Assembly (NCBI RefSeq): GCF_016462955.1 | Contig: NZ_JAEMSD010000009.1 | Location: 1-43,462, forward strand | DNA from: Bradyrhizobium sp. | GTDB taxonomy: Bacteria; Pseudomonadota; Alphaproteobacteria; Rhizobiales; Xanthobacteraceae | Direction: 5' to 3' | Length of the DNA: 43,462 nt | Shown here: piece after piece, positions 9,978-42,799 of the stretch | How the letters are laid out: each line of letters begins with the position of its first letter | Position numbering within the stretch: position 1 is the first letter of the stretch | Notes under the pieces: model-generated | The model's input: the letters and a program-made list of their open reading frames with translations, nothing else | Database searches by the model: none | What the model was told of the DNA's origin: nothing | Made by a program: the position numbers and the translations under genes

Positions 9978-10135
9978 TATTGCGTTCACGGCATAAGCTT
10001 TGATATGTGAAGCGTTTTTCTTTTGTGAATGTTCTACTTACAAGCGTCTAATCGACTAAGTGCTTGAATTTGGATGTGACATTCAGATTTGACATTTTTC
10101 GAGCCAAGCAGTCATGCAAGCAGAAGGAAGATCGG

Positions 10136-10591
10136 ATGTTTGACCGTCGCCAGCTTCTCGGAGCCTCTACTTTCATCGCGGCAGTCAGCGCCGTCTCAGG
10201 GGCAGTGTTTGCCCAAGGACCAGATCACGGAGCGATGCCAGGAATGGCGGCCGGTAACATGACGCGAGAAGGCTGCATAGAGATATGTCTCAAATCCCAT
10301 CGTATGTGTCTTGAGACTGCACGGTACTGCACTGAAATGGGGGGAGCTCACGTCGGTGCTGCGCATCTCGCTCTCCTGCTCGATTGCGCGGAGATGTGTC
10401 AGACCACCGCGAATTCCTTACTCCGCTTTTCGCCGGAGCACGGCGTCATTTGCGGTGCATGCGCCCAATTGTGTGAGGCCTGCGCGAAGGATTGCGATGC
10501 GATCGCCGGTGACGATCGAATGGCGCGCTGTGCAGCGACATGTCGCGAGTGCGCGCAGGATTGCCGCGGGATGGTGAACATGAAGCTATGA
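10136..10591 (+). CDS. Csp1-like Tat-exported four-helix copper-storage protein
   Basis: This 151-residue protein belongs to the Cys-rich four-helix-bundle (DUF326/Csp) family, whose members store many Cu(I) ions on thiols lining the bundle. The N-terminus MFDRRQLLGAST carries a twin-arginine signal ending near VFAQ, so export is folded, as in Csp1 of methanotrophs. The mature protein has 15 cysteines in CxxxC and CxxC spacings (GCIEICLKSHRMC, DCAEMC, CGACAQLCEACAKDC, CAATCRECAQDC). A short Met/His segment (HGAMPGMAAGNM) precedes the first helix. ATG 10136 follows AAGGAAG. The perfect FixK-type box upstream suggests control by low oxygen. It sits in a window with copAB, supporting a copper role. 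Confidence 0.88.
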   Translation: MFDRRQLLGASTFIAAVSAVSGAVFAQGPDHGAMPGMAAGNMTREGCIEICLKSHRMCLETARYCTEMGGAHVGAAHLALLLDCAEMCQTTANSLLRFSPEHGVICGACAQLCEACAKDCDAIAGDDRMARCAATCRECAQDCRGMVNMKL

Positions 10592-17771: not shown

Positions 17772-18656
17772 CTACGATTGACCCACGTTCAGAACCGGTG
17801 CAAGACCTTCGATGAGCGCGCGTCTCTGCTTTTCATCCAGTTTTGCGTTGAGACGGGCAAGCGCAGTGCCCAACGCGCGCAGCGCTGCAACATGTTTCGA
17901 CGATTGCAGCTCATGCCTCTTGAGCAAAGCCACCGGGTCCGTGGAAGCCGGTTCAGCCGGGGAGGGACGGCGAACGACCTGCGCGGTCGCGTCGAGCAGC
18001 TCCAACCAGGCTGGCTCTTGGGACGGCTCTATGCCGACCGTGTCATGCAAGGCGGCCATCTTCTGCGACAACTCTTCGCTGGAAATCGGTCCCTGGCTTG
18101 CGAAATCGGCCGGCGGCGCCATCTCCTTCCCTGAGGGAGCAGCATCGGCTTGCTTGGCTGGCTGTGACGCAGCGGCTGCTTGGTCACCTCCAGGCGGTGT
18201 GCCCATCGGGGTCGTCGCACGCTCGGCGTTGTCGGCCGTCGTAGCCTTGGGTCCCGAAGGCATGGTTTCGCCGGGCGCGCGGGCGACCACCGCGTCGTCG
18301 ACCGCACCCGGGCAGAAAAAGCTGAAATTGCCGGTGTCGCGGCCGCGTATGAACTGCGTCCAGTTCGGCTCAACCCGGTGTTCGGGAGAAGTATCGAACG
18401 TGCCGAGGTGATGGCACATGGCGCAATGAGGCTGATGGGCGCGAACGCGCAGCCGGCCGCGATCGATGCAATAAGTGTCGATAAGATCGCCAAAGCCGGA
18501 GCCGGGTCGAGCGAGAACAGGAGAGCCCAGCAGCAGCGCCGCAAAGCAGGCGAGCGGGACAACGCCGGCATATCGGCTCGGCGCCTTGCGTTCGGAATCG
18601 GATCGCATGTCTTCAGCCTCTCGTCTGGCCTCGCGCCGTTTCGCCCCACCCATCAT
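17772..18656 (-). CDS. periplasmic c-type cytochrome with Spy-like C-terminus, in hydrogenase operon
   Basis: No standard hup/hyp gene matches this 294-residue product. It has an N-terminal signal/anchor (VVPLACFAALLLGSPVLARP), then a heme-c site CAMCH (HQPHCAMCHHLGTFD) flanked by other cysteines (TYCIDRG, FFCPG). A Pro/Ala-rich linker follows. The C-terminal helix ends LGTALARLNAKLDEKQRRAL, close to the LTxxQ/Spy pattern seen at 31434-32183. The ATG is within four bases of the hupL stop (TTATGATGG), and hypC follows after 11 bases, so it is part of the operon. The likely role is electron acceptor for the anchorless hydrogenase, which is inference. The ORF-track N-terminal extension overlaps hupL and is not used. 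Confidence 0.75.
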   Translation of the reverse strand: MMGGAKRREARREAEDMRSDSERKAPSRYAGVVPLACFAALLLGSPVLARPGSGFGDLIDTYCIDRGRLRVRAHQPHCAMCHHLGTFDTSPEHRVEPNWTQFIRGRDTGNFSFFCPGAVDDAVVARAPGETMPSGPKATTADNAERATTPMGTPPGGDQAAAASQPAKQADAAPSGKEMAPPADFASQGPISSEELSQKMAALHDTVGIEPSQEPAWLELLDATAQVVRRPSPAEPASTDPVALLKRHELQSSKHVAALRALGTALARLNAKLDEKQRRALIEGLAPVLNVGQS

Positions 18657-20452
18657 AACACCTTCACGCGAACGAGCTCGTCGCCATCGGGATCGATGAC
18701 ATGGACCGCGCAAGCCAGGCACGGATCGAAGCTGTGAATGGTACGCAATATTTCCAGCGGGCGCGTGGGGTCCTTCAATTTGTGTCCGCGCAGTGCCGCT
18801 TCGTACGGACCCTCCCGGCCCGCTGCGTCGCGCGGCCCCGCGTTCCAGGTGCTTGGAACCACCGCCTGATAGTTGCCTATCCGTCCGTCTTCGATGGTAA
18901 GCCAGTGGGCCAGAGCTCCGCGCGGGGCCTCCATCATGCCGACGCCGCGGCTTTTCTTGGGCCATGTGGCAGGATCGAACAGGACGTCGTCGAAGGTGCG
19001 GAGATCGCCGCTTGCGATGTTCGCCATCAAGGCGTCGTGCATGCCGGCCATCGAATCCGCGATCAATTTGGTCTCGAGGGTGCGCGCCGCGATGCGCCCC
19101 AATGTCGAGAAAAGCGCCGGGATCGGCAGACCCAGTCGGCCAAGCGCGTGGTCGACCAAGCCTCGTGCGCGAAGATCCCCACTGGCGTAAAGGACCAGAA
19201 CCCGGGCCAACGGTCCAACTTCGACCGGAAGCCCTTTCCAGCGCGGGGACTTGATCCAGGAATATGATTTGTCGACGTCGAGCTGCTCGTAGGGCGGCGC
19301 CGGTCCGGTATAATCCAGGGAAGTCTCTCCGTCATAGGGGTGCAGGCCCGCCTGTTTGCCGGTGGAGTATTGATACCAGGAATGGGCGACGAACTCCTGG
19401 ATCTCGGTCGGATCCTCAAAATCGACCGGCTGAACGCTCGACAAATCCCGGTTGGTGATCACGCCTGCCGGAAATAGCAAGGTTGTCCGTTCGGCCGCGC
19501 CGATCCCTTGCGGAAACTCGCCGTACGACAGGAAGTTGCCGACCCCTTCACCGCGGGTTGCCCAGTCCTTGTAGAATCCGGCGATCGCCAGCGTGTCGGG
19601 CAAATAGACCTGGTCGACGAAGGTCCTCATCTTTTTGATCACCTCCCCGACCAGCCGTAGGTTCTCCGCGTTCACGGCCGTGGCAGTCGCCGTCTCAGAA
19701 ATTGCGCAGGGAACGCCGCCGACCACGAAGTTCGGGTGCGGGTTCTTTCCGCCAAAAATGGCATGGATCTTGACCACATCGCGCTGCCAGGCCAGCGCCT
19801 CCAGATAGTGCGCCACCGCCAAGAGGTTGACCTCCGGCGGCAGTTTGTATTCGGGATGGCCCCAGTAGCCGTTTGCGAAAATTCCGAGCTGGCCTCCTTC
19901 CACAAAGCCTTTCAGCTTTCGCTGGACGCTGCCGAAATAGTCGGGGGAATTGTTGGGCCACGGGCTCAAACTGGTCTGCAGCTTTGCGGTCGCGGCTGGA
20001 TCCGCCTTGAGCGCGGAAACGACGTCGACCCAGTCGAGCGCATGCAGGTGATAAAAGTGCATGACATGGTCGTGCACATATTGCGCAGCAATCATCAGAT
20101 TGCGGATGTGCTGGGCATTTTGCGGAATCACGTGGCCAAGCGCATACTCCACCGCCCGGACGGAGGCGATGCTGTGCACGACGGTGCAAACGCCACAAAA
20201 TCGCTGCGTAAACGCCCACGCATCGCGCGGGTCACGCCCTTTCAGAATGATTTCGATGCCGCGCACCATCGTGCCTGAGCTCGACGCGCGCGTAATCACG
20301 CCTTGAGCGTCGGTTTCCGCCTCGATCCTCAGATGTCCTTCGATGCGGGTGACCGGATCGACAACCACCCGGCGCGGTTGCGAGCCCGTTGTCGCGGCTC
20401 GAGGCTCGGAAGTGGATTTCCTGCCTGTCTTCCGATCAGAAGGGTTTGCCAT
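18653..20452 (-). CDS. hupL: [NiFe] uptake hydrogenase large subunit
   Basis: This subunit carries the Ni-Fe active site that splits H2. The 599-residue protein shows VVVDPVTRIEGHLRIE, the L1 motif RFCGVCTVVHSIASVRAVE and the L2 motif SFDPCLACAVHV, followed by a short extension (VIDPDGDELVRVKVL) that HupD removes after His. The four cysteine ligands are present. ATG 20452 overlaps the hupS stop by 17 bases, which supports translational coupling. It belongs with group 1 respiratory hydrogenases. The upstream ORF-track extension is inside hupS. Confidence 0.96.
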   Translation of the reverse strand: MANPSDRKTGRKSTSEPRAATTGSQPRRVVVDPVTRIEGHLRIEAETDAQGVITRASSSGTMVRGIEIILKGRDPRDAWAFTQRFCGVCTVVHSIASVRAVEYALGHVIPQNAQHIRNLMIAAQYVHDHVMHFYHLHALDWVDVVSALKADPAATAKLQTSLSPWPNNSPDYFGSVQRKLKGFVEGGQLGIFANGYWGHPEYKLPPEVNLLAVAHYLEALAWQRDVVKIHAIFGGKNPHPNFVVGGVPCAISETATATAVNAENLRLVGEVIKKMRTFVDQVYLPDTLAIAGFYKDWATRGEGVGNFLSYGEFPQGIGAAERTTLLFPAGVITNRDLSSVQPVDFEDPTEIQEFVAHSWYQYSTGKQAGLHPYDGETSLDYTGPAPPYEQLDVDKSYSWIKSPRWKGLPVEVGPLARVLVLYASGDLRARGLVDHALGRLGLPIPALFSTLGRIAARTLETKLIADSMAGMHDALMANIASGDLRTFDDVLFDPATWPKKSRGVGMMEAPRGALAHWLTIEDGRIGNYQAVVPSTWNAGPRDAAGREGPYEAALRGHKLKDPTRPLEILRTIHSFDPCLACAVHVIDPDGDELVRVKVL

Positions 20453-21413
20453 AAAACCCTCCCTCGCGGTCCCAGAACTTCGGCTGCGCACAGCCCAGGC
20501 AACCGTGCCCCGAGTACATGGGGAAGCTCGTCCTCTGGTTCCATTTCACAGTGGTGCAGGCGTTAAAGGTGGTCGGTCCCTTGCAGCCGAGGTCCTTGAG
20601 ACAGTAGCCCTTGCGCGCGCCCTCATCGTCGAAGCTCTTTGCAAACAGGCCCTGGTTGAAGAACGGCAACCGGGGACAATCGTCGTGCACGGTTCGGCCA
20701 AAGAACGGCACCGGGCGTCGCAACTCATCGAGGGGTGGCGGTTTGCCAAAGGTCAGAAAGTGCACGACCACGCCGGTCATGACCTCGGGCACGGGCGGGC
20801 ATCCGGGAACGTTGATTAGCGGAGCCATCACTTCGGTCTTTTCGATCAGGTCGCGCAGCGCATCGAACGCTCCTCCCGCGCCGGTCGGGTTGGGCGCCGC
20901 CGCCGGGATTCCCCCGTAAGTGGCACACGTGCCGACCGCGATGATGAGTGCCGCCCCCCGCGCGGCAGTTCGCACGAGCTCGCGCCCGCTCTTCCCGCCT
21001 GTCGTCGAATAGCGTCCCACCTCATCGAGCGGGATTCCTCCGTCCACGATCAGGACGTACTTGCCGCGTGCGCGTTCGATCGCATTATCACGGGCCTGCT
21101 CCGCCGCGAGACCCGCGGCCGCCTGCAACACATGATGGTAGTCAAGGGAAAACTGATCGAAGATCAGGCTCTCGAGGGTCGGCTCAAACGAGCGCAGGAT
21201 GGACTCGCTGCAACCGGTGCATTCCTGTATCGAGAGCCAAATGACGCTCGGCCGAGGCTTGCTCGAAAGGGCCTGCGCGATCGCTGGCGTTGCGCTGGGC
21301 GGCAACGCCAGGATGGATGCCGTATAGGCACACCAGTTCAAGAAATCGCGCCGTGACAGGCCCTGGCGGCGGAGGTGATCCAAGACCGAGGGACGATCGT
21401 CCGAAATTTCCAT
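20436..21413 (-). CDS. hupS: [NiFe] hydrogenase small subunit, Tat-exported, no membrane anchor
   Basis: The 325-residue precursor starts with a Tat signal (LSRRDFLNWCAYTAS), so the dimer acts in the periplasm. Mature-part ligands are visible: proximal IQECTGCSES and GTCATYGG, distal HDDCPRLPF with GYCLKDLGC, and medial NACTTVKWN with GHGCLGCAQ. The positions of the two extra cysteines of the O2-tolerant type (CTCC and WGC) are Gly here, so a normal [4Fe-4S] proximal cluster is expected. The protein ends at FWDREGGFYGKPF without the usual C-terminal membrane helix, and no hupC follows. The ATG has GGGGAGGG upstream. It is the first gene of the operon, and no FixK box was seen before it. Confidence 0.95.
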   Translation of the reverse strand: MEISDDRPSVLDHLRRQGLSRRDFLNWCAYTASILALPPSATPAIAQALSSKPRPSVIWLSIQECTGCSESILRSFEPTLESLIFDQFSLDYHHVLQAAAGLAAEQARDNAIERARGKYVLIVDGGIPLDEVGRYSTTGGKSGRELVRTAARGAALIIAVGTCATYGGIPAAAPNPTGAGGAFDALRDLIEKTEVMAPLINVPGCPPVPEVMTGVVVHFLTFGKPPPLDELRRPVPFFGRTVHDDCPRLPFFNQGLFAKSFDDEGARKGYCLKDLGCKGPTTFNACTTVKWNQRTSFPMYSGHGCLGCAQPKFWDREGGFYGKPF

Positions 21414-22802: not shown

Positions 22803-22925
22803 CCGGTTCTGCAATCGAGCGGTCATACTTGATTTTCCGACCAATGCCATTGCATGATCGTCGGATTGATCGGCTGCAGATGGGAGTCTGGTGGCGGACC
22901 ATCTCGCCGAAAAAGGGGAGGCCGC

Positions 22926-24986
22926 ATGCAAGTTTTGTTCGGGAGTCGGGGGGCGCGCATTGTTTTGGCCACGTTGAGCCTGATGTTCCTTGACCAAACA
23001 GGTGCCAACGCCGGCACTTACGATCTCGTGCTAGAAAGGCACGCCATGAACATTACAGGCCGCGACAATGTCGCGTTGCTGATCAATGGTCAGCTTCCCG
23101 GTCCCGTTCTTCGCTTCAAGGAAGGGGAGAACGTCGTCGTAAATGTCACAAACCGCCTAGATGAAAATGCCTCGATCCACTGGCATGGGCTGATTGTTCC
23201 ACCCGAAATGGACGGCGTGCCCGGCATTTCCCCTGGCTATGGCGACGGCATACCGCCGGGGCAAACCTTCACTTACCGCTTCCAGCTCAGACAGTCGGGA
23301 ACCTATTGGTATCACAGCCACTCGTCCGGCGAACAGGAGCAACTCGGCATCTATGGCCCGATGATCGTCGAACCTCGCGGGCAGGATCCGTTTCGGTACG
23401 ACCGCGATTACATCATCATGCTCTCCGACTGGAGTGATGACGCCAGGAGCATCATCAAGAACCTGAAGGCCGAGAGCGGCTGGTACAATTTTAACCGGCG
23501 GACTCTGGTCGGCTTGTTGCAGGACTTGAACAAGGCGCCCTCCGACGAGGCGCGCCGCGCGATCATCAATGACCGCGTCGCCTGGTCGTTGATGCGAATG
23601 GATCCGACCGATATTTCGGACGTCTCGGCCTATACATTCCTGGCGAACGGCCGGACGCCGGAGCAGAATTTTACCGCATTGTTCAAACCCGGCGAGCGCA
23701 TCCGCCTGCGCTTCATCAACGGCTCGGCCATGACGTATTTCGACGTGCGCATTCCGGGATTGAAGATGACCGTCGTCCAGGCCGACGGCAACAACGTTCA
23801 GCCCGTGGTCGTCGACGAATTTCGGTTCGGCAATGCCGAAACCTACGACGTGATCGTACAGCCGACCGAAGACCGAGCCTATACGATTGTTGGAGAGTCG
23901 TTGGACCGCACAGGCTTTGCCCGTGCGACCCTGGCGCCCCGGCCGGGAATGATCGGCGAACTGCCCCCGCACCGGTTGCGACCGCTCGTCTCGATGGCCG
24001 AAATGGGCATGAATCTCGGCCCGAAGGGTGGCGACCGTGGCACGCTGCGCCCGGAGCAAGACATGCCGGGCCATGTCGCGCCCGAAGATCCGGTGGCAAT
24101 GGCGATCGGAATGGGCGACATGGGTGCAATGTCGGGCAAGGGCGGCGCTGGCACGATGCCTGGCATGCAGCATGGGACTTCGGGAGCCAAGCCGCAGATG
24201 TCCGGTATGTCCGGTTCAAAAGACTCAAGGCGCGCCCCAAAGCCGGCGAAGCGGGACAAGGCTCCGGGCATGCCCGGGATGAACCACGGGAATATGCCGG
24301 GAATGAGCAGCGCCTCTCCCGATCGATCGGACGCCCTGGCGCAGATGCGGGCCGCGCCAGATCATTCCAGCATGCCGGGAATGGGTAGTGGAGCTCGTGG
24401 TGCTCCGGAAGTAGAAACTGGAATCCAGCAGGGACCACAAGCCTATGTTCTCCGTGGCGGCGAAGACATGGAGAGCGTCCCTGTGACGGGCGGGCACGCA
24501 GTGCCGGATCCGCTCCTCAACGACACGGGAGCTCCTCCAGGGACCAAGGTCCTTTCCTACCGGGATCTCAAAGCGCTCAATCCGTACCCGTACAAACCCT
24601 ACGATCGCATCATTGAGATGCGGCTGACTGGCAACATGCAGCGATACTTCTGGTCGATCAATGGCCGAAAGTTCAGCGAAGCCGAACCGATCGTGCTGCG
24701 GTATGGCGAGCGCGTCAGATTCCGCTTTATCAATGAGACCATGATGAATCATCCGATGCACATCCACGGCACGTGGTTCTTGCCGGAGGTTGGCAACGGT
24801 GCTCGCAATCCCAAGAAGCACACCGTCAATATCAAGCCAGGCGCCACGCTCGACGTCGATGTTCCCGCTGACGCCGAAGGTCCCTGGGCATTCCATTGCC
24901 ATCAGCTCTATCACATGGAGACAGGCATGATGCGAAAGATTGAGGTGGTCCGTCAGAGCATAGCGGCCGGTAGGAGGCTTCGATGA
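22926..24986 (+). CDS. copA: multicopper oxidase, CopA copper-resistance type
   Basis: Periplasmic CopA-type multicopper oxidases oxidise Cu(I) and sequester copper. The 686-residue protein has a signal peptide (RIVLATLSLMFLDQTGANAG), cupredoxin domains with SIHWHGLI and TYWYHSHSSGE, and C-terminal MMNHPMHIHGTWF and FHCHQLYHMETGMM, giving the ligands for type 1, 2 and 3 copper. Between domains 2 and 3 is a long Met-rich insert (MPGMQHGTSG, MSGMSGSKD, MPGMNHGNMPGMSS), typical of copper-binding CopA. ATG 22926 follows AGGGGAGG. The stop overlaps the copB start (ATGA). The signal is Sec-like, not the Tat type common in CopA. Confidence 0.95.
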   Translation: MQVLFGSRGARIVLATLSLMFLDQTGANAGTYDLVLERHAMNITGRDNVALLINGQLPGPVLRFKEGENVVVNVTNRLDENASIHWHGLIVPPEMDGVPGISPGYGDGIPPGQTFTYRFQLRQSGTYWYHSHSSGEQEQLGIYGPMIVEPRGQDPFRYDRDYIIMLSDWSDDARSIIKNLKAESGWYNFNRRTLVGLLQDLNKAPSDEARRAIINDRVAWSLMRMDPTDISDVSAYTFLANGRTPEQNFTALFKPGERIRLRFINGSAMTYFDVRIPGLKMTVVQADGNNVQPVVVDEFRFGNAETYDVIVQPTEDRAYTIVGESLDRTGFARATLAPRPGMIGELPPHRLRPLVSMAEMGMNLGPKGGDRGTLRPEQDMPGHVAPEDPVAMAIGMGDMGAMSGKGGAGTMPGMQHGTSGAKPQMSGMSGSKDSRRAPKPAKRDKAPGMPGMNHGNMPGMSSASPDRSDALAQMRAAPDHSSMPGMGSGARGAPEVETGIQQGPQAYVLRGGEDMESVPVTGGHAVPDPLLNDTGAPPGTKVLSYRDLKALNPYPYKPYDRIIEMRLTGNMQRYFWSINGRKFSEAEPIVLRYGERVRFRFINETMMNHPMHIHGTWFLPEVGNGARNPKKHTVNIKPGATLDVDVPADAEGPWAFHCHQLYHMETGMMRKIEVVRQSIAAGRRLR

Positions 24987-25759
24987 ATCGCGCTCGACCG
25001 ATTGCGTTGATTGCCCTTGTACTTGGATCTATCTCGCTGAGCGCGCCCGCTCAAGCCCAGAGCCCGGTACCTTACGTCGAACAAACCTCATGGTGGGGAT
25101 CTCGCACCCCGAATGGAATAAGCTTCCCGGATCAGCAGCTTTTCAGCGCCTCGCGTTTCGAGAAGCTCGAATGGAGCGGCCCGAATTCTGCGCGCTGGGA
25201 CATGGAAGGATACATTGGAGGCGACTACGACAGGCTGGTTTTCAAGTCGGAGGGCCTCTACAGCGGTAGAACCAAGAACCTCGAGGAAGGTCAACTGCAA
25301 GTTCTCTATTCTCGTCTGATTGACTATTATTTCAACGCCCAAGTGGGCGTTCGACAGGACTTTTCAAATAGGTCGAACCGCACCTATGCTGTCATCGGCC
25401 TGCAAGGTCTCGCACCCGGCTTCATCGAAACCGACACTGATCTATACATAAGCCAGGAGGGCGAGGTCTCCGCCTCGTTCACCGCGTTTTACGATCTCCT
25501 GATCACGAACCGCCTGATACTGCAGCCCCGTATCGACCTGAGACTTCAGGCGCAGCCGGTGCCTGACCTGGAGCTGGGCAGCGGGCTCACAGATTTCGAG
25601 CTGGGGGCACGCTTGCGTTATGAATTTACCCGCAATTTCGCGCCCTATATCGGCGTCAATTGGGACCGCAAGGTCGGTCAGACAGCGACCATTGCGAGAA
25701 ATAGCGGCGAACCAGTGTCCGCGGTGTCCTTTGTCGCGGGTGTGCGGCTATTCTGGTGA
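24983..25759 (+). CDS. copB: outer-membrane copper-resistance protein CopB
   Basis: CopB forms an outer-membrane barrel working with CopA. The 258-residue protein has a signal peptide (LIALVLGSISLSAPAQAQ), then VPYVEQTSWWGSRTPNGISF and strands WDMEGYIGGDYDRLVFKSEG, YYFNAQVGVRQDF and RYEFTRNFAPYIGVNWDRKV, ending in FVAGVRLFW with the C-terminal aromatic typical of outer-membrane barrels. The Met-rich N-terminal segment of many CopBs is missing. The ATG overlaps copA by four bases. It converges with the ECF sigma gene at 25811. A broken second copB tail is at 37672-37896. Confidence 0.93.
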   Translation: MNRARPIALIALVLGSISLSAPAQAQSPVPYVEQTSWWGSRTPNGISFPDQQLFSASRFEKLEWSGPNSARWDMEGYIGGDYDRLVFKSEGLYSGRTKNLEEGQLQVLYSRLIDYYFNAQVGVRQDFSNRSNRTYAVIGLQGLAPGFIETDTDLYISQEGEVSASFTAFYDLLITNRLILQPRIDLRLQAQPVPDLELGSGLTDFELGARLRYEFTRNFAPYIGVNWDRKVGQTATIARNSGEPVSAVSFVAGVRLFW

Positions 25760-25810: not shown

Positions 25811-26368
25811 TCATTTGCGGCGCACTTCATTGCAGCGACATACAAAATAGTTTTCATCCTCGCAGGCCTCACAGATTTCTTCGAGGCGGCCTTTCAAGGC
25901 TTGACGCGCTCGATGAAGGCGAACCGTGATGTTATTCACGGTCACTCCGAGTTCAAGCGCGACTAATTCCCTGGGCTCGTCTGCGAGGTCTATTCTTCTG
26001 ATTATCTCGGCTTGCTCCGCCCTCAACAAGGCAAGATATTGATGCAGACATTCGCAAATTTCCTGATCTGCTTCCTGGCTCCGATCGATGGCGAGGCGCT
26101 CGTTCAGTTCGGCCGTGAATGATGCCTCCTTGATTGCCCTGGACCTTTGACGATGGAAATCAGCAATGGTCGTCGACAGAATCCGGCTGAGCCAGCCGCG
26201 GACAGCGTTGGCGTCCCGGAGATCGGAGGAACGTTCGAGAGCCCGCAACATGAATGTTTGCAGTACTTCTTCAGCGTCTTCCTGCACCCTAAGGCGCTTC
26301 CGTAGATGGCTCCGGAAGCGGCCGTAGCTTTCGACGAGAGCTATTCGAACTGCTCGATCTGAGGCCAT
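25811..26368 (-). CDS. ECF sigma factor with Cys-rich C-terminal tail
   Basis: A 185-residue sigma-70-family regulator. Region 2 is VESYGRFRSHLRKRL...VQEDAEEVLQTFMLRAL and AVRGWLSRILSTTIADFHR. Region 4 is LRAEQAEIIRRIDLADEPRE and VALELGVTVNNITVRLHRAR. After region 4 a short tail reads ICEACEDENYFVCRCNEVRR, a CxxC-x9-CxC arrangement recalling the metal-sensing Cys-rich domain of CorE-type (ECF44) sigma factors, which respond to copper. No anti-sigma gene is visible nearby. Convergence with copAB supports a copper function, but target genes are unknown. Start ATG 26368 is chosen because the frame before it is Pro/Ser-rich. ATG 26428 is possible. Confidence 0.8.
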   Translation of the reverse strand: MASDRAVRIALVESYGRFRSHLRKRLRVQEDAEEVLQTFMLRALERSSDLRDANAVRGWLSRILSTTIADFHRQRSRAIKEASFTAELNERLAIDRSQEADQEICECLHQYLALLRAEQAEIIRRIDLADEPRELVALELGVTVNNITVRLHRARQALKGRLEEICEACEDENYFVCRCNEVRRK

Positions 26369-26457
26369 AGACGACAATGGCGCGCTCGTTGCAGCCGGGC
26401 CTGGACGGTTGGTCCACGATGATGACATAGCAATTGCTCTGTTCAATGTTCGGCAGA

Positions 26458-26501
26458 TTGCTTCGGTAAGGGCTGTGGCTTGCTTCGGTAAGGGCTGTGG
26501 C
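26458..26501. repeat. perfect 22-bp tandem duplication upstream of the sigma gene
   Basis: TTGCTTCGGTAAGGGCTGTGGC occurs twice in direct succession (26458-26479 and 26480-26501), about 90 bases upstream of the sigma-factor ATG on its 5' side. Confidence 0.9.
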
Positions 26502-26595
26502 CCAAAGTGCGCGAAAAACACAGCAGATGAAGCAATGGCATATGAGCGCACGCGCCCCAAAGCGGAGCGCAGCAGCCCAACACACACATGAAATT

Positions 26596-27514: not shown

Positions 27515-27811
27515 CTACGGGCCCCTACCGTGTTGAGTTACGGGTGCAAACTCCTGGCCCGTAAACAGATAATAGCCGTCCCGGCTGAGGGCATTAGCGA
27601 CGGACTTTCTCCGCAGGCAAGCTTGACGCGCATCGCTTCCTTTCAAAATGCGAACGAACCGCCAACCTGGGCCCAACAGCAAATTTGGAATTTCTGTGTG
27701 CGTAGGTACGACGGCGTAGAAGTCGCGCGCAAATGTGCTGGCAAAGAGCGCGTCGGAAGATGCGGCCCGCAGCGGAACAGGCGCTACAGACGGCAACAAC
27801 AGAGGCGGCAT
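27515..27811 (-). CDS. small protein at the end of the electron-conduit operon
   Basis: A 98-residue product without a recognised domain. It is believed real because GAGGAG lies eight bases before ATG 27811 and overlaps the stop of the heptaheme cytochrome gene, which implies coupling. Visible segments are TEIPNLLLGPGWRFVRILKG and DGYYLFTGQEFAPVT. A signal peptide is not clear, so location is unknown. Confidence 0.5.
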   Translation of the reverse strand: MPPLLLPSVAPVPLRAASSDALFASTFARDFYAVVPTHTEIPNLLLGPGWRFVRILKGSDARQACLRRKSVANALSRDGYYLFTGQEFAPVTQHGRGP

Positions 27812-27823
27812 CGGGTTTGCTCC

Positions 27824-28600
27824 TCAATGGTGCTTAAACCATCCGATATCCTTAATGTCATTGAAGGAATCGGTGCGGTGGCAAAGGAAGCACTGGCTTA
27901 CGGTGGCATGCTCCTGACCGGTGATCATTCGGTCCATCATAATGAAATGCATCATATAGTGACTTGGCGGTGCCTGGTGACATTGCGCGCATTCCTTGGA
28001 CGTCGGTGAAGGATGTAGGAACTGAGCAATCCGCCAGGAATCCAAGGTATGACAGCTGGCGCAATCACGCCCGAATAGGCCGCGATGCGGCTCACGGTTG
28101 CTGTGGCAGTTGGCGCAATCGAGACCTGCCTTCTCCGGTTGGTTGGAAGTCGGCAATCGCAGAAATCCTTTTAAATCGGTCACCATCTGTTCACTGATCG
28201 CGCGCGCCGAGGTGTTTTGGCCTTGCGGAAATGATCCTATGCGCAGCAGCGTAGCATGGTCCATCTTGGTGGCACGAACGGCGCCCGTATGCTCGATGTG
28301 ACATCCGCGACATTCTTTACTGGTCGCATGAAAAGCGGTCGACTGCATGCTCAGATCGGCGGCGGACGTCGTGTGACAGGCGATGCAGGCTGACGCCTGG
28401 ACGCCCTTTGTCGGCGTATGGCACGTCTCGCATTTATTGGAGAGAAATGCATGCTTTTGCGACAGAGGCCCTGGCACGACGGCATCTGTCCAACCGGAAA
28501 CTGCGCCGGAACCGTCGCGGTACAAGCCGATTGATATCGCCGCTACGCCTGCGATGGCGAACGTGACCAGGACCGTATAGACGAAAGAGCGCAGGCTCAT
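27824..28600 (-). CDS. periplasmic heptaheme c-type cytochrome
   Basis: A 258-residue protein with an N-terminal signal/anchor (FVYTVLVTFAIAGVAAISIG) and seven CxxCH heme sites: CETCH, CIACH, CRGCH, CANCH, CASCH, CAQCH and CFLCH. Extra histidines (FHATSKE, IEHTG, MDHATLL, REPHRG) could be distal ligands, as in cytochrome c3/c7-like proteins. ATG 28600 overlaps the stop of the cytochrome b gene (ATGA), so the two are made together. It is expected to take or give electrons on the periplasmic side of the membrane b hemes. Possible partners are the periplasmic hydrogenase, copper or iron; this is inference. Confidence 0.9.
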   Translation of the reverse strand: MSLRSFVYTVLVTFAIAGVAAISIGLYRDGSGAVSGWTDAVVPGPLSQKHAFLSNKCETCHTPTKGVQASACIACHTTSAADLSMQSTAFHATSKECRGCHIEHTGAVRATKMDHATLLRIGSFPQGQNTSARAISEQMVTDLKGFLRLPTSNQPEKAGLDCANCHSNREPHRGLFGRDCASCHTLDSWRIAQFLHPSPTSKECAQCHQAPPSHYMMHFIMMDRMITGQEHATVSQCFLCHRTDSFNDIKDIGWFKHH

Positions 28601-29301
28601 GTCAGCCACCGCAGCCCGTAATAGATTTCGCCGGCGACGTGCAGCGCCAACAGCGCATACATTGCGATTGCCGCAACCACGTGGAGGCCGATCCACTGCA
28701 TGAATACTTTCTTGACCGTGTCTTGAGACCCGATCGCGTATTCAAGGTCCGCAATGCCGTCGACGAGCTGCAACAGTGTGACGTCCTGCAGCGCAGCCGG
28801 TCTTACAGATGGACCGTCGGGATTGGCTATTTCCCGAGTGGACAGGGTGAGCGCCGTCCGGTCATAGGCGGACCGCAATGTTGATAAATGAGCTTGTTGC
28901 TCTCGAATTTCGGACGCGGTCTGCGGCAGATAGTATCGACCCACAAATCCGGTCACCACAACGACCAGCATGCTAGCGATGAGGCCAATTCCTATCGGAC
29001 TTTCGTACTTGTGGCCGCTATGAAGAATGGCCAAGAAAGATGCGGCAATGCCGGCATAAACGTGAAAGCTGAGGAGGGCCTTCATCGATACCAGCCGCGT
29101 GACAAGCGCCCTGAAGCTTCGGCTGTACTTCGTGAGTGGATAGACGATGAGAAGAACCATCAAGGTCGCGGCGGACGTGCCTAAGGCAAAGCCGGCCAGG
29201 CTGCCAGCAAATCTCGAATCGGAATGAAGCAAAAAGGCGGGAACGAGCAGCAAGAGGCTAGCGAGGACGATATCAACGATGAAGCGTCCTCGTTCGCCCA
29301 T
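28597..29301 (-). CDS. five-helix di-heme transmembrane cytochrome b
   Basis: The 234-residue membrane protein has about five helices. Helix 3 holds SFHVYAGIAASFLAILHSG and helix 5 holds GLHVVAAIAMYALLALHVAG. Both show His-x13-His, the spacing that binds two stacked b hemes across the membrane in ferric-reductase/NOX-type cytochromes. A hydrophilic stretch of about 75 residues separates helices 4 and 5. ATG 29301 lies right after the reductase stop (TGATATG) with GAGG eight bases upstream; the ORF-track start at 29328 would be a TTG. It probably links the cytoplasmic reductase to the heptaheme cytochrome. Confidence 0.85.
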   Translation of the reverse strand: MGERGRFIVDIVLASLLLLVPAFLLHSDSRFAGSLAGFALGTSAATLMVLLIVYPLTKYSRSFRALVTRLVSMKALLSFHVYAGIAASFLAILHSGHKYESPIGIGLIASMLVVVVTGFVGRYYLPQTASEIREQQAHLSTLRSAYDRTALTLSTREIANPDGPSVRPAALQDVTLLQLVDGIADLEYAIGSQDTVKKVFMQWIGLHVVAAIAMYALLALHVAGEIYYGLRWLT

Positions 29302-29302
29302 A

Positions 29303-31411
29303 TCAAGCCTCGACGACCAGATTTCCAATCGACTTGGCTTGGCAAGCCAGGATCATGCCCTGCGCCTTGTCCTCGTCCGTCAACGCCTCCTGGACCTCCA
29401 TCGTGACGGTCCCTTCCAGGAGATGAGTTTTACAGACCCCGCAGGTGCCTGCACGGCAGGAAAAATCGATCGGAACGCCGACCGACTCGGCGACTTCGAG
29501 GACGCTCTTGTCAGGAGGCAACGGAGCAACTTTGTCCGACTTGGCGAAGCGAATTGACGCCGTAGCTGGCCCGAGCGCCGGCGCCGCAGTTTCGGACTTG
29601 CGCTTTTCGACGATCGTCATTCCCGGGGGAGGGACAGCTCCGAGCGCGGGACCGAATGCCTCGGTCTTGATTTGTTCGGGCGGAACACCAATCTCGCCGA
29701 GCACCTTCCTGAGCGTATCCATCATTTTCGGAGGGCCGCACAAGTGGACGCGTTGCTTTGCCAAATCGGGTACGGACCGCGTCAAGAAATCACTGGTGAT
29801 CTGACCCTCGGCACCCATCCATGAAGTACCTGCCGCCCGCACCATCGTTGCAGCTACGTGCAAGTTGTCCATCTTGCGCTGCAGGTACTCCAGTTCATCC
29901 CGGAAGATGAAGTGCTCCGTGGTTTGAGCGCCGTAAACCAGATAGATCTGACCCGGCCATGCAATATCGGACAGATATCTCACCGCAGCCATTAACGGTG
30001 TGATTCCTACGCCGCCACCGATGAGCACCACGCTGTCGGATTCCTTCCCTGTGAAGGTGAAAGCACCCGAAGGAGCCAGTACCTCAAGGAGGTCTCCCAC
30101 CTTGATCTGGCCATGCATGTACTCGGAGAAAACTCCTCCATCCTCTCTCTTGATCGTGGTCTCTACATAGGCCGTCTGGGCGGCAGATGATGCGATCGTA
30201 TACGACCGTCGGACGGTCTTTCCATCGATCTCGGCGGAGTAGGTCAAAAACTGACCGGGCAGGAATGTGAATGGAATAGCGCCTCCAGCGGGATCCTGGA
30301 GGCGGAACGTCTTCACACTTGGCGTTTCCTTGTAGATCGCACAGACTCTGAGTCTGCCCTTCCAGAGGCCGCCCGGCTTCGCCGTAGTGCTGCGGCTGCC
30401 AGGCTCGGGTGGGTTGGGCCCGCTTTCAGCGTAACTTGGCTGGCCACTCATGCTCGCTCGTGGCGAGGCTATCGTCGCCTTGGTGTCCGTCGCCGCGCTC
30501 GCAGGAGACACCGGAGCGGCAGCAGGCGATGCCAGCCCGGGCGCCGGTGCGCGAGTCAGGCGATCGACGAGCGCGTTGGCCCGGCGCATGCGCTCCACAT
30601 AGACGATAAGCATTCCGGCAGAGAAGATGCCGAGGAGTGCCATTGTAATGAGGTGAAACCAGGAGATGCCGAACAGGCCATTCGCATTCCCATGACGCTG
30701 TTCAGGCGTCGCGAGGTTCATCTGAGATTTGAACCAACTCTGCGCGATCTGCTGCGGGGGCTTTCCCTCATTCAGCGCCCGAAGCGCGGTAACGCCGCTG
30801 TGGACCTGATTGAGAGAATCGCGGATTTGCTTCGCCGCCTGATCTGCCGCGGCAATGTCACCCCCAGCAATCGCATGCCGTAAATTCTTTTCAGCGGCCG
30901 AGATGCCGTCGATGTCTGAATTGATCCGGCCGCGAGCCTGAGATTCCAGGTTGAGGCGCTGCTCCGCCGAAAGCGGCGGCATTTCCATCAAGGATGGATA
31001 GAACTCCTTGCGCGGGCGGCCCATCATTTCGCCCATCATGTTCATCATGCCGGAGTTCGGAGCGCTTGATGAAGGTGCCGGTGAGCCTCCACCTGGTTTA
31101 CTTGGTGGAGTGGCGGGGCTATTCGACTGAGGTGCGGCATCAGCTCCAGAATTCGATCCACCGGGATGATGCGCCGAATGTTCATCCGCCGATTGAGCGA
31201 ATTGCCGCCTTCCGTTTGACCATTCAAGCCCGCGCCGATCGTCGGCGGCATAAATTGCGAACCCTGGCCTGATAGCCCTGGCGCTCTCCCGCTGAGATAT
31301 GGCACTGTCCGGCGAAACACTGGCGAGCACTGTGCTCGCAGCAAACCAGCTCCAAAGGGCCAAGGCACCGAGGACACGTCGACATCCGAAAGACAATACG
31401 ACTCTCGACAT
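29303..31411 (-). CDS. membrane-tethered FAD/NAD(P) reductase with C-terminal [2Fe-2S] ferredoxin and periplasmic Spy-like domain
   Basis: A 702-residue multidomain protein. A signal sequence (VLGALALWSWFAASTVLAS) precedes a Pro/Ser linker and a periplasmic helical domain (MPPLSAEQRLNLESQARGRI, ISAAEKNLRHAIAGGDIAAA) like Spy/metal-resistance proteins. One membrane helix follows (FHLITMALLGIFSAGMLIVY). The cytoplasmic half has the FAD motif RRSYTIAS, the NAD motif VLIGGGVGITPLMAAVR, CGPPKMMDTL, and a plant-type ferredoxin CRAGTCGVC...ILACQAKS. So NAD(P)H electrons can reach [2Fe-2S] and then the neighbouring cytochrome b. A broken second copy is at 43108-43462. ATG 31411 is preferred over the TTG at 31426. 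Confidence 0.88.
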   Translation of the reverse strand: MSRVVLSFGCRRVLGALALWSWFAASTVLASVSPDSAISQRESARAIRPGFAIYAADDRRGLEWSNGRRQFAQSADEHSAHHPGGSNSGADAAPQSNSPATPPSKPGGGSPAPSSSAPNSGMMNMMGEMMGRPRKEFYPSLMEMPPLSAEQRLNLESQARGRINSDIDGISAAEKNLRHAIAGGDIAAADQAAKQIRDSLNQVHSGVTALRALNEGKPPQQIAQSWFKSQMNLATPEQRHGNANGLFGISWFHLITMALLGIFSAGMLIVYVERMRRANALVDRLTRAPAPGLASPAAAPVSPASAATDTKATIASPRASMSGQPSYAESGPNPPEPGSRSTTAKPGGLWKGRLRVCAIYKETPSVKTFRLQDPAGGAIPFTFLPGQFLTYSAEIDGKTVRRSYTIASSAAQTAYVETTIKREDGGVFSEYMHGQIKVGDLLEVLAPSGAFTFTGKESDSVVLIGGGVGITPLMAAVRYLSDIAWPGQIYLVYGAQTTEHFIFRDELEYLQRKMDNLHVAATMVRAAGTSWMGAEGQITSDFLTRSVPDLAKQRVHLCGPPKMMDTLRKVLGEIGVPPEQIKTEAFGPALGAVPPPGMTIVEKRKSETAAPALGPATASIRFAKSDKVAPLPPDKSVLEVAESVGVPIDFSCRAGTCGVCKTHLLEGTVTMEVQEALTDEDKAQGMILACQAKSIGNLVVEA

Positions 31412-31433
31412 GGCCCCAGCTTTCAAGGCGTCG

Positions 31434-32183
31434 TCAGAACGTTGCGATCAAGGGCAGCAGGATGGCGTCTGCCGTCTTCTTCTGCTCGTCGCTCAGGTTC
31501 GTATATAGACGATTGAAGGCGGTGCGAGCTGCCTTGATCGCTTCCAGGCGTTCCGCCAGGTGGCGCTCGTAATGCTCAATCCGCTCGGAACCCGAAATTT
31601 TCTCATCCACGACGAGGAGTTTGCGTGCATCCAGCAAATGCTGGCGACTGGAGCGTAGCGCGTCAGCCAAAAGGTTCCAATCAGCCGATTGCTTGTCAGT
31701 GATCTGCAACTCGGCCTTCAGGAAGGCGATCCGCCCTTCCAGCCGCTCAGTCACGTCCGCCGGCCCGCTTGCGGTAACTCCGGCCTCGGGCGCCATACCG
31801 GCTTTGGGTGCGGGCATCTGACCGTGCATCATCCGCATCATCCGCATCATGTCATCCATGCCACCGCCCATGTTCTGGGATTGGCCGCCGGATTGTCCCA
31901 TTCCTCCCATCGAACCCATTCCGCCCATAGGCCTTTCCATAGGCCTCTGCATGGGCATCTTCATCTTGTCGTCCATGCCGCCCATGTTCTGGGATTGGCT
32001 GCTGGATTGGCCGCCCATGCCGCCCGAGCTGTTGGATGAGTCGGACTTCATTTTCATTTCGTCCATCATCGCAAGCTGCAAGGGATTTGCAGCCGTTGCT
32101 CTCGCCGATGACGGCGCGGCTGGCGCCAGACCCAAGACGACGAGCGCGGCTGCGGTTCCGATGAACTTCTTCATATTCTCCAT
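31434..32183 (-). CDS. LTxxQ/Spy-family periplasmic protein with Met-rich region
   Basis: The first gene of the conduit operon. It has a signal peptide (FIGTAAALVVLGLAPAAPSS), a long Met/Gly/Ser-rich region with imperfect repeats (QSQNMGGMDDKMKMPMQRPM, MGGMGSMGGMGQSGG, QSQNMGGGMDDMMRMMRMM), and a helical C-terminus (EGRIAFLKAELQITDKQSAD, YTNLSDEQKKTADAILLP) matching the LTxxQ pattern of Spy/CpxP chaperones. Met clusters suggest Cu(I) binding. ATG 32183 is chosen for GGAG six bases upstream; 32174 is possible. The FixK-type box ends 62 bases upstream. Confidence 0.85.
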   Translation of the reverse strand: MENMKKFIGTAAALVVLGLAPAAPSSARATAANPLQLAMMDEMKMKSDSSNSSGGMGGQSSSQSQNMGGMDDKMKMPMQRPMERPMGGMGSMGGMGQSGGQSQNMGGGMDDMMRMMRMMHGQMPAPKAGMAPEAGVTASGPADVTERLEGRIAFLKAELQITDKQSADWNLLADALRSSRQHLLDARKLLVVDEKISGSERIEHYERHLAERLEAIKAARTAFNRLYTNLSDEQKKTADAILLPLIATF

Positions 32184-32679: not shown

Positions 32680-33785
32680 AAGCCTATCAACATCCTTCGA
32701 CCAAGTTCGGTAATACCCAATGATAGTCATCATCCACAAACCCGTGGCTCCGACACAACGAGCTGGACCGGCACTCCATCCAAACCAAAACCCAGCACGA
32801 AATGGGCGATGAAGGACAAGAACAGGCCGACGCAAAAGACAGGCGGGGATTGTTGACTGCACCGGATGAGAGGTTGAATATTGGCCATTTCAGTCCCCGC
32901 CAGTCGATCGGAATGAGCGATACGACGAGATATACCAGGCTCACCAAATGGATCACGTGGTAGGGAGCGAGATTAGATTTACTCTTTGGGAATAAACGGC
33001 TCGGCAATGACATCGGGAGCGAACTGCCGCAATTCGGGATTCGGTCTGCCAGAGTAAAGAGCAAAGAGAAGGAAGCCGATGCACAGGACGTAGAGAATGC
33101 GCGAGTGCAGGAGTCCTTGATTTGCAGCACCTCCGAGCGCGAACTAGGCTTCAAGAATGAAGAGTAGCTGACACGTAAACGGATTGAAATACCATACCCC
33201 GGCCGGATAGGACGCAGGTTCCAGCCATAATGGCGAGCAGCAAAATACGGACCAATGGCCGATCATCACCGCGTTGCGCCATCGCAACATGAACCAGAGG
33301 ACGGGAAGGCGGCCGTCAACACGATGTTGAGAGGCAAGGCGTCGAGATTGAGTGGTTTAAACCTGAGCACCAGGCCCTTAGACAATGTCTCAACAGGAAA
33401 AAATCATCAGAGGGGCGACGTTGAATGGATCCATGAAATGCAGATCGTCGAATGTGTGCGCAAGGTAACGCACCGCAGTGAGGTAGACGACGAACAGCAG
33501 CAGATGGGCGACATAGACCTGCCACACATGGCGCAATAGCCTGGTCGCTCCGACGACAAAGCCGTGTTGCTTAATTAGCGTTCCGAAAACAAGCGTCGTG
33601 GTGTAGCCGGAGATCATAAGGAACAGATCGGCTCCATCGCTAAAGCCGTAATTCCGCGTCATGAACCAAGCGAGCGCGGTGTTTGGTATGTGCCCAGAAA
33701 GATCAGCCAGTTTGCCAGTCCGCGAAACGGATCCAGGCGGATATCGCGCTGCGGCTTCGGCAACACGGACCTAACGGTTATTGTT
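32680..33785 (-). pseudogene. OpgC-family acyltransferase-like membrane protein, several frameshifts
   Basis: OpgC proteins are multi-helix inner-membrane enzymes acting on periplasmic glucans. The minus strand shows LPKPQRDIRLDPFRGLANW, a shift to TRNYGFSDGADLFLMISGYT and GFVVGATRLLRHVWQVYVAH, a ruined middle, then KSNLAPYHVIHLVSLVYLVV with IDWRGLKWPIF, and a last frame with MTIIGYYRTWSKDVDR. The order is that of OpgC, but at least three frame changes and internal losses make it non-functional. Confidence 0.7.
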
Positions 33786-34115: not shown

Positions 34116-35735
34116 ATGACAAGCAAGACAACGAACAAGTTCTCACCTTAAGTGCGGACCCGTGCAATTCGGATGGTTCTGGACCGCGAGAGCGAGCATG
34201 CCTCGTGCCGGGCGGCGGTCGTTTCGATCTCAGCCAAGATCGCTGTACGCCGCAGACATTGCATGAATCGGTCAAGAAGGCCGAGATCGACAGCGGCCGG
34301 CGATCCGGCGTGCCATCCGACGTCTCGGACCGGCTCAAGGCCCTTGAGCGGGAGAAGGGCGAGCTTCGCCAGGCCAATGAGACCCTGTGCAAGATGTCGG
34401 CATATTTTGCGATGGCGGAGTTGACCGCCGGTACAAGCCATGATCGCGTTCATCGACGATCACCGCGAGGTTTATGGAGTCGAGCCGATCTGCAAGGGTT
34501 GCCGATCGCCCCCTCGACCTACCACGCCCAGCCGCCAAGCGGCGCGATTCAGCCAGGCTGTCGGCGCGCGCCAGGCCGGATGCCAAGCTGAAGATCGAGG
34601 TTCGGAGAGTCTTCGGTGAGGGCTTCCGGGTCTATGGCGTGCGCAAGATCTGGCGACAGCTCAAGCGTGAAGGCTTCGATGTTGCTCGTTGCACAGTGTC
34701 GCGACTGATGCGGCACATGGGCTTGCGAGGGATAATCCGCGGCGAAACCGTCAAAACCACGATCAGCAACAAGGCCGCGCCATGCCCGCTGGATCACGTC
34801 AACCGCCAGTTCAAGGCGCCAAGGCCGAACGTTCCTTTGGCTCTCGGTAGTCGCAACACCAATTCGTTTTTACTCATGACAGCAATTCGTCAAGCGCTTC
34901 TGCCGGCGTTTTCCAGCCCAGGGTCATTCTGGGTCGCTCATTGAGAGCCGCTGCTACAGCGGATATCTCGTCGACGCTGTGGATGCTCAGGTCTGTGCCT
35001 TTCGGAAAGTACTGCCGCAGCTAACCCGTTGGTGTTCTCGTTGGTGCCGCGCTGCCCAGGGCTTTTCGCATCGCTGAAGGCCCTGCACCTTTAGAGGGCC
35101 GCCCTGCACCTTTAGCGGGGCAATTCCTCGCGTTCAGCCGATGAAAGACAGCGCCCGGAGAGAGGCTTGGCCGAAGATCTGAACATCGCTGGTGGCACGC
35201 CGCCTGCCTTTCGGAATAATCTGCTTCAGACCGGTTGCGAAAAATCCGGCCTCAAACGCAGCATCTTCGCTGCTCTGGCCTGTGGCAATCGCCTTCCAAC
35301 ATCGATGCTATTCATCGCGTCCGGCCGCAGACGGCCGGCCTGGCAATGGCAATGGCGCTCGTTCTGACCGCGCCGAACGTCTATCTTTCATCGCAACTTC
35401 CACTTCAGGGTGTTGCGACGACCGTTTGAATCCGCCCAATACGTCTCGATCAAATATACCGAGCGCCTGGCGGAAGCAGCGTCGAGCCTACTGTCTGCAG
35501 CGTCGGAACCTATGACAATGCTCTCGCCGAAAACCATCAACGGCCTCTACAAGGCCGAAGTGATCCACCGTCGAGGTCCATGGCAAAACTTCGAGGCCGT
35601 CGAGTTCGCCACCCTCGAACGGTCTATTGGTTCACAACCGCAGGTCGCTGGAGCCCATTGACAACATACCGCCGGCCGAAGCCCCGCAACGCTACTACGC
35701 CATGCTGAACAACAGGCCATGGCAGTATAACCTAA
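34116..35735 (+). pseudogene. IS3 transposase orfA/orfB, interrupted
   Basis: The usual OrfA-OrfB pair of an IS3 element with an in-frame stop after nine codons of OrfA ([11 protein letters not shown] then [16 protein letters not shown]), frame changes in both genes, and a foreign insert of about 560 bases between QFKAPRPNV and SIKYTERLA. The order of motifs is normal, so the insert entered a formerly whole orfB. Confidence 0.8.
34870..35330 (-). mobile_element. IS30-family transposase relic nested in the IS3 copy
   Basis: Minus-strand pieces of an IS30 transposase are visible: FWKAIATGQSSEDAAFEAG-like N-terminus, FRKAGGVPPAMFRSSAKPLS, GRCLSSAEREELP, then, after an internal deletion, GQRGTNENTNG and, in another frame, LRQYFPKGTDLSIHSVDEIS and MTLGWKTPAEALDELL. 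The catalytic middle is lost. A short direct repeat (CCCTGCACCTTTAG at 35081 and 35102) lies at the deletion. Confidence 0.75.
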
Positions 35736-41867: not shown

Positions 41868-42799
41868 GCCAGACTCTGCTTATTCCGATGCCCGACAACG
41901 AACGATTGGCGGGGCGGCTTGCCGACCAGCTCGATTGCGGAACGGGCGAATTGATCACGCGGCGATTTCCGGACGGGGAGACCTATCTTCGTTTCAACAC
42001 CGAGCTCGGCAAGCGATCGGTTGCCATCGTCTGCACGCTGGCGCATCCGGACGAGAAGTTCCTGCCCCTCATCTTTGCCGCCGCGACCGCGCGCGAGCTC
42101 GGCGCCTCGAAGGTCGGACTCGTCGCTCCGTACCTCGCCTATATGCGACAGGACCGCCGCTTCAATCCCGGCGAGGCGGTGACGTCCCGGCAGGTGGCGC
42201 ATCTCATCTCCCAGGCCTTCGACTGGATGGTGACCGTCGACCCTCATCTGCACCGGTACGGCGACCTGAGCGAGATCTACTCGATACCTACGCGCGTCGT
42301 TCATGCGGCTCCGCTGGTTTCGCGGTGGATCAAGGAGAACGTCGAGAAGCCGCTCATCATTGGTCCGGATAGCGAGAGCGAACAGTGGGTGACGGCGGTG
42401 GCAAGCGACGCCGAAGCGCCTTATTGCGTCCTGCAGAAGGTCCGTCACGGGGACCGGGACGTCCGGATCACGCTTGGGAATCTCGACGCCTGGAGGGGAC
42501 GCACGGCCGTGCTGGTCGACGACATCATTTCGAGCGGGCGCACGATGATCGAGGCCGTCCGGCTGCTCGCCGCGCAGGGCTGGCCGCCGCCGGTCTGCAT
42601 CGCCGTCCACGGATTGTTCGCGGATCGATCCGACGAACTGCTCGTCGGCGCCGGCGCGCGGGTCGTGATCACGAATAGCGTCGGTAGCGGGAGGAGCCAG
42701 ATCGATATCGCGCCTCTGCTCGGGGAGGCGATGGGGGCTCTCGCAGACCTCGGCCCGCCCGATAGCGCGGGGCGCCGGCCGCGCCCTCACGGATCATGA
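41864..42799 (+). CDS. prs: ribose-phosphate pyrophosphokinase (PRPP synthetase)
   Basis: The 311-residue enzyme makes PRPP from ribose 5-phosphate and ATP. It has RRFPDGETYLRFN, APYLAYMRQDRRFNPGEAVT, VTVDPHLHRYGDL and the PRPP loop VLVDDIISSGRTMIEAVRLL. Length is normal for the family. This is likely a second, specialised copy, since a housekeeping prs is usually elsewhere. Overlap (ATGA) with the phosphorylase suggests both act in one pathway, in which ribose phosphate released from nucleotides is turned to PRPP for base salvage; this is inference. Confidence 0.93.
   Translation: MSQTLLIPMPDNERLAGRLADQLDCGTGELITRRFPDGETYLRFNTELGKRSVAIVCTLAHPDEKFLPLIFAAATARELGASKVGLVAPYLAYMRQDRRFNPGEAVTSRQVAHLISQAFDWMVTVDPHLHRYGDLSEIYSIPTRVVHAAPLVSRWIKENVEKPLIIGPDSESEQWVTAVASDAEAPYCVLQKVRHGDRDVRITLGNLDAWRGRTAVLVDDIISSGRTMIEAVRLLAAQGWPPPVCIAVHGLFADRSDELLVGAGARVVITNSVGSGRSQIDIAPLLGEAMGALADLGPPDSAGRRPRPHGS

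Follow-up and report, generated by a model that had tools for sequence, protein, structure and literature searches.

Four translationally coupled genes on a Bradyrhizobium contig code for a set of redox proteins that we regard, with modest confidence, as an NAD(P)H-driven conduit supplying electrons to the periplasm in copper and heavy-metal stress islands. Its acceptor would most likely be copper, another metal or a stress oxidant, and H2 would be a second donor in a subset of loci. The contig (G000:C292), hereafter the window, is the whole 43-kb stretch of DNA that was analyzed and belongs to a 7.4 Mb genome in 894 contigs. The genes follow each other on the minus strand in this order:

31434-32183/32216, minus strand: Met-rich periplasmic Spy/CpxP-like (LTxxQ) protein, operon gene 1 (Pfam LTXXQ)
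29303-31411/31426, minus strand: tethered FAD/NAD(P)/[2Fe-2S] reductase (Pfam domains, invariant residues)
28597-29301/29328, minus strand: predicted di-heme cytochrome b (invariant His, AF2 model)
27824..28600, minus strand: membrane-anchored periplasmic heptaheme cytochrome c, c3/c7-like (seven CxxCH, Cytochrome_C7 and Cytochrom_c3_2)

An earlier note on this DNA had described the same four genes on this strand, correctly except for the start codons and the low end of its range (27515-32183), since positions 27515-27823 hold no conserved gene of the set. The stop codon of the Spy-like gene and the reductase ATG are separated by about 22 nt. The genes had also been called overlapping, which is true of cytochrome b and the heptaheme protein, the stop of the former being overlapped by the ATG of the latter as ATGA. 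The reductase and cytochrome b genes only abut, because the conserved ATG at 29301, 2 nt past the reductase stop, is the most likely start of cytochrome b. The heptaheme gene most likely runs from the ATG at 28600 to 27824 and contains seven CxxCH; its product is taken to have 258 aa rather than 290 because of the overlap of its start codon with the cytochrome b stop.

The reductase, cytochrome b and heptaheme genes form a triad of adjacent, co-directional genes with strictly conserved cofactor ligands. The cluster cysteines C652, C657, C660, and C690 of the reductase and its FAD/NAD motif residues are invariant in 85 homologues, the heme-b histidines in 51, and all seven CxxCH in 55, so the feature is not due to chance. 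The continuous path drawn previously, which leads from NAD(P)H in the cytoplasm to c hemes in the periplasm, holds as an architecture. Its succession of NAD(P)H, FAD, [2Fe-2S], two b hemes, and seven c hemes has strong support from the domain content, the coupling of the genes, and the deep conservation of the ligands. The electron flow, its direction, and the heme content are our reading of this architecture.

The first gene matches Pfam LTXXQ (E=1.9e-17, 64.2 bits against a cut-off of 24.3), in agreement with the Met-rich LTxxQ protein proposed at this position, and its product belongs to the Spy/CpxP/ZraP/CnrX (LTxxQ) proteins. In the reductase, the FAD_binding_6, NAD_binding_1, and C-terminal Fer2 domains all exceed the Pfam cut-offs and one TM helix is present, which supports the tethered NAD(P)H-FAD-ferredoxin reductase of the earlier note. 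The domain order of FAD, NAD, and C-terminal plant-type ferredoxin is the layout of oxygenase-type reductases (PaaE, GbcB, HCR class), and the nearest solved structures are of the same type; equivalog scores were below cut-off for GbcB (217.8 of 500 bits) and PaaE (186.2 of 420.8). His253 (H253), at the edge of the single TM helix, is also invariant in the 85 homologues. At the N-terminus, a signal peptide, a stretch rich in His and Met, and an LTxxQ-like pair of helices make up a periplasmic domain. Both this domain and the Spy-like protein are Met-rich.

Cytochrome b carries two His-x13-His pairs on predicted helices, as had been claimed. Variation of these histidines among homologues had been named as grounds against the proposal; H80, H94, H207, and H221 are all invariant in the 51 homologues compared. 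In the AF2 model (pLDDT 83), helices 73-94 and 168-233 carry the ligand His and are joined by a long helical hairpin that is predicted to be cytoplasmic. The loop before helix 73 is positively charged, suggesting that the N-terminal ends of both ligand helices point toward the cytoplasm; H80/H207 would bind the inner heme and H94/H221 the outer heme. The model, built without heme or partner, gave zero fold matches to solved structures at E<=0.001. The sequence has weak matches to Ferric_reduct/DUF4405. For Ferric_reduct (PF01794), 29 of 51 members match weakly (best E=0.0049) and the window member scores 12.1 bits against a cut-off of 28. The His arrangement is that of the ferric reductase superfamily (FRD/NOX/MsrQ), with two pairs 13-14 residues apart on two TM helices. 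Cytochrome b thus falls below the sequence cut-off of the ferric reductase family, yet it probably functions like that family.

The heptaheme protein scores above cut-off for Cytochrome_C7 and Cytochrom_c3_2, and 15 of 55 family members match MtrC/MtrF-like domains; the domain search gave no peroxidase or oxidase domain. All seven CxxCH sites described for this periplasmic protein were found. At least 8 further His are invariant in the 55 homologues, which would be sufficient for bis-His ligation of each heme. The AF2 model of this protein is poor (pLDDT 56) and unusable.

A one-genome-per-species scan gave 258 heptaheme relatives, of which the best 80 were kept; together with 6 plasmid loci they make up the 86 loci tallied. 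Cytochrome b is present in 84 of these and the reductase in 83, the exceptions being contig ends and two lone-heptaheme loci. The relatives occur in Proteobacteria, Planctomycetota, and other groups, with hosts such as Bradyrhizobium, Rhodopseudomonas, Afipia, Microvirga, Reyranella, Roseomonas, Novosphingobium, Phenylobacterium, and planctomycetes. In addition, 52 plasmids have a relative, including those of Sphingobium, Alteromonas, Legionella, Methylophaga, Variovorax, and Spirosoma. A separate Spy-like gene is near the triad in 59 of the best 80 of 258 loci. The order Spy/reductase/cytochrome b/heptaheme is conserved in about a dozen Bradyrhizobium and on plasmids of Alteromonas and Glaciecola, where the Spy-like gene was recognized by eye, from a Met-rich stretch and an LTxxQ-like motif, rather than by a Pfam match. 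Absence of the order elsewhere had been the other observation that would count against the proposal; as order and histidines are both conserved, neither check refuted it.

Several further observations concern the surroundings of these genes. The two lone-heptaheme loci (L099 and L100) have neither reductase nor cytochrome b and adjoin an RND pump, an OpgC protein (L099), and DUF3141; the L099 gene is about 17 kb from a hydrogenase of the same genome. A second triad copy, 60% identical, is found in the genome of the window (contig C705, L063, 3812-7080); its clade sits near hyp genes in G016 and G026, and contig C705 may adjoin the window. At 43108-43377 (minus strand) there is a remnant reductase of the same family with a recognizable TM region, after which it is truncated, suggesting that another triad copy may once have stood there. 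Upstream of the operon lies a broken OpgC-like gene (32687-33770, minus strand), and transposase-like fragments nearby (34474-34944) suggest rearrangement. A series of genes at 38974-42799 (plus strand) codes for an MBL-fold nuclease, an AMP/thymidine phosphorylase-like protein, and a ribose-phosphate pyrophosphokinase; homologues of the first two recur near triads, in 15 and 9 of the 86 loci, respectively.

The terminal partner of the module had been left open among hydrogenase, copper, and iron. The gene neighborhoods narrow it to a copper or metal-stress context, with hydrogenase in a minority of loci. The window itself contains the following neighbors:

22854..25759, plus strand: copA (multicopper oxidase) and copB, copper resistance (TIGR01480 652 bits; CopB E=5e-75)
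10064..10591, plus strand: four-helix-bundle copper-binding protein homologue of the same island (phmmer match to annotated four-helix copper proteins)
25811..26587, minus strand: ECF sigma factor, recurrent Bradyrhizobium neighbor and candidate regulator (Sigma70_r2/r4)
17775..21413, minus strand: small and large subunits of a periplasmic [NiFe] hydrogenase plus a monoheme/LTxxQ-like protein, candidate electron partner

A metal-resistance gene lies within 10 kb of the triad in 54 of the best 80 of 258 loci, and a strict copper gene (CopA, CopB, four-helix copper protein, DUF411 or PcoC/plastocyanin-like) in 40 of the same 80. As a whole-genome control, about 37 over-cut-off copA genes were counted in 26 genomes, so that a random 20 kb stretch would have copA in <1% of cases, a comparison that is approximate, the CopA label of the locus scan being looser than the whole-genome cut-off. 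The phmmer query set for the four-helix protein included the copy of the window itself; a homologue was also seen in L020/L059. In L104, L105, L107, and L114, copA-copB is directly upstream of the reductase gene and co-directional with it. The triad neighbors on plasmids include MerR, RND pumps, a Cu-ATPase, DUF1622, and DUF411, as well as a ccm cluster in Methylophaga. Many triads have no CopA nearby, and a Bradyrhizobium clade with an adjoining ECF sigma factor has a metal gene within 10 kb in 0 of 14 loci. The ECF gene is found in 24 of the best 80 of 258 loci, and no promoter motif was shared upstream of the operon and the sigma gene. That the triad and copper genes are linked may be due to mobile islands in common rather than to a common function. 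At the level of strains, not of genes, an Alteromonas strain whose plasmid bears a metal-resistance/hydrogenase island of this type has better Cu, Zn, and Hg tolerance than strains lacking it (PMC4781885).

From this architecture and context, we infer the following route. Cytoplasmic NAD(P)H would reduce the FAD of the tethered reductase. From the [2Fe-2S] cluster of this protein, electrons would enter the five-helix cytochrome b, first at the inner b heme (H80/H207) and then at the outer one (H94/H221). The outer heme would in turn reduce the membrane-anchored heptaheme cytochrome c, which would serve the periplasm as an electron hub. The Met/His-rich LTxxQ domain of the reductase and the separate Spy-like protein appear placed to bind or sense periplasmic copper. 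The likeliest acceptor would be copper, with Cu(II) reduced to Cu(I) and exported by RND/P-type pumps, or another metal or a stress oxidant. In loci with a linked anchor-less periplasmic [NiFe] hydrogenase, H2 may feed the heptaheme hub as a second source of electrons. Cu(I) cannot drive the formation of NAD(P)H, so in a copper setting the electrons must exit the cell interior; H2 could drive electrons in either direction. CopA is thought to oxidize Cu(I), and a Cu(II) reductase beside it would therefore work in the opposite direction unless the two are active at different oxygen levels. A role in Cu(II) reduction is nevertheless attractive, because CcoG was the only specific bacterial cupric reductase that a 2020 review recognized, and the eukaryotic enzymes work with NADPH and heme b (PMC7558416). 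NAD(P)H-dependent Cu(II) reduction by the module is a candidate function to which gene linkage points. Going further, the module might represent a new and widespread class of bacterial periplasmic metal reductases with copper as substrate and the heptaheme protein as shared hub, powered by NAD(P)H and, where the island allows it, by H2 as well; we put this forward tentatively and consider it doubtful.

The gene after the large hydrogenase subunit in the window (17775-18655, minus strand) codes for a protein that has a single CxxCH and a weak LTxxQ domain, is conserved with the hydrogenase clade, and is a possible electron carrier. Five other genomes and the Bradyrhizobium BTAi1 plasmid pBBta01 have hydrogenase homologues that are 74-88% identical. 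All 7 of 7 hydrogenases of this clade are on the same contig or plasmid as a heptaheme gene, about 1.5 to 35 kb apart; this gene belongs to a triad in the clade except in G556, where a heptaheme gene is 34 kb from the hydrogenase. Hup-type hydrogenases (54-59% identical) lie 0.8 Mb (G065), 1.3 Mb (G047), and 3.4 Mb (G005) from the triad in three relatives with long contigs, and random hydrogenase linkage was rejected on this ground; the linkage of the triad with the window clade is stable. Directly after the four genes, Alteromonas macleodii EZ55 and Glaciecola have orf2, hynD, hupH, hynS, hynL, and hyp genes in an unbroken series, and by position cytochrome b and the heptaheme protein are orf1 and cyt of the published Alteromonas HynSL operon. 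The small subunit of the hydrogenase has no anchor at its C-terminus, and a HupC-like cytochrome b was not seen next to the enzyme. These features would fit a module working inward, in which the [NiFe] hydrogenase reduces the heptaheme protein and electrons return through cytochrome b and the flavoprotein to form NAD(P)H. Such transfer from H2 to NAD(P)+ is energetically downhill, and Desulfovibrio hydrogenases reduce cytochrome c3. However, hydrogenase or hyp genes are within 10 kb in only 7 of the best 80 of 258 triad loci, and the others must serve another use. On the maximum-likelihood tree the linkage is scattered over several clades (7 changes), so the association was gained or lost several times and hydrogenase is not the only use of the module. 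A primary function as hydrogenase partner was therefore rejected as the general role. Orf1 and Cyt were also dispensable for maximal in vitro hydrogenase activity in E. coli (PMC3102683), although this assay bypasses the natural acceptor. Taken together, an inward hydrogen conduit is unlikely as the explanation of the module. Alteromonas Orf2 (L155:16739-17962), reportedly required for full hydrogenase activity, resembles a transporter-like membrane protein with several passes and has no Pfam match.

Outward flow could also serve purposes other than metal reduction. NAD(P)H electrons might be passed to O2, peroxide or CopA, lessening oxidative damage under copper stress while copper itself is not reduced. 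CopA-type enzymes reduce O2, multiheme c proteins readily react with peroxide, and copAB is directly upstream in several loci, all of which would suit such an oxidant sink. The triads lacking CopA and the lack of a peroxidase or oxidase domain in the heptaheme protein argue against it, and we judge it quite unlikely. Alternatively, the electrons might mend oxidized Met or Cys of Met-rich periplasmic proteins, as in MsrPQ; the Spy-like protein and the reductase periplasmic domain are themselves Met-rich, and MsrQ/Fre likewise pairs a flavin reductase with a membrane heme b. This is very improbable, as the annotated plasmid neighborhoods showed no MsrP or thiol-reductase gene and the chemistry needs no heptaheme protein. 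Respiration on extracellular metals through a conduit of MtrCAB or CbcL style is similarly improbable. The c3/c7 grouping of the cytochrome and its MtrC/MtrF-like matches are in its favor, but the neighborhoods read (annotated plasmids, Alteromonas, and Glaciecola) showed no outer-membrane multiheme porin complex, the donor would be NAD(P)H and not quinol, and the hosts are mostly aerobic. Reduction of periplasmic copper, another metal or a stress oxidant with electrons from NAD(P)H is our preferred reading.

To our knowledge, the well-known parts of the highly mobile copper-resistance islands only export, bind or oxidize copper. The conserved NAD(P)H-to-c-heme module suggests that these islands may have an undescribed, active reductive arm, and for the Alteromonas-type hydrogenase, whose electron partner is missing, it offers a concrete candidate. 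Both ideas are directly testable, because culturable hosts (Sphingobium, Alteromonas, Bradyrhizobium BTAi1) carry the module on plasmids. A literature search, with subscription journals mostly outside it, gave no specific description of the module in copper resistance. The earlier remark that no described system of this composition was known holds in part: the genes themselves head the Alteromonas hydrogenase operon, and in 2011 two of them received the names orf1 and cyt, though no function. Each part is of a known kind, and the combination of a tethered flavo-[2Fe-2S] protein that has a metal-type domain in the periplasm, a separate di-heme cytochrome b, and a heptaheme protein was not among the characterized systems found.

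The closest known system is the Alteromonas macleodii HynSL operon (orf1/cyt/orf2/hynD/hupH/hynSL), in which the same Spy-like/reductase/cytochrome b/heptaheme order stands directly upstream of orf2-hynD-hupH-hynSL. However, that operon was studied for hydrogenase maturation only, the window operon is 6.4 kb from its hydrogenase with copAB between them, and most homologues of the module have no hydrogenase nearby. In MsrPQ with Fre, electrons similarly pass from a cytoplasmic NAD(P)H flavoprotein through a membrane heme b protein to the periplasm, whereas the flavoprotein of the window has a [2Fe-2S] cluster, a membrane tether, and a periplasmic domain, its acceptor would be a heptaheme protein, and the Ferric_reduct similarity is marginal. 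The FRE, STEAP, and NOX metalloreductases also lead from NAD(P)H through FAD to b hemes that are stacked, the His of each pair being spaced by 13-14 residues, and eukaryotic metalloreductases of the ferric reductase/NADPH oxidase type reduce Cu(II) and Fe(III). Unlike in these enzymes, the reductase and heme domains of the window system are separate proteins, the long hairpin is different, and a multiheme c protein follows. CcoG may have a job in common with the module, Cu(II) reduction in copper handling, but it uses [4Fe-4S] clusters and has no b or c hemes. The CbcL-type and similar inner-membrane oxidoreductases of Geobacter likewise couple a di-heme cytochrome b to a periplasmic multiheme c protein. 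CbcL is a single fused chain and these oxidoreductases draw on menaquinol, whereas the window system would be fed by NAD(P)H through a flavo-iron-sulfur protein.
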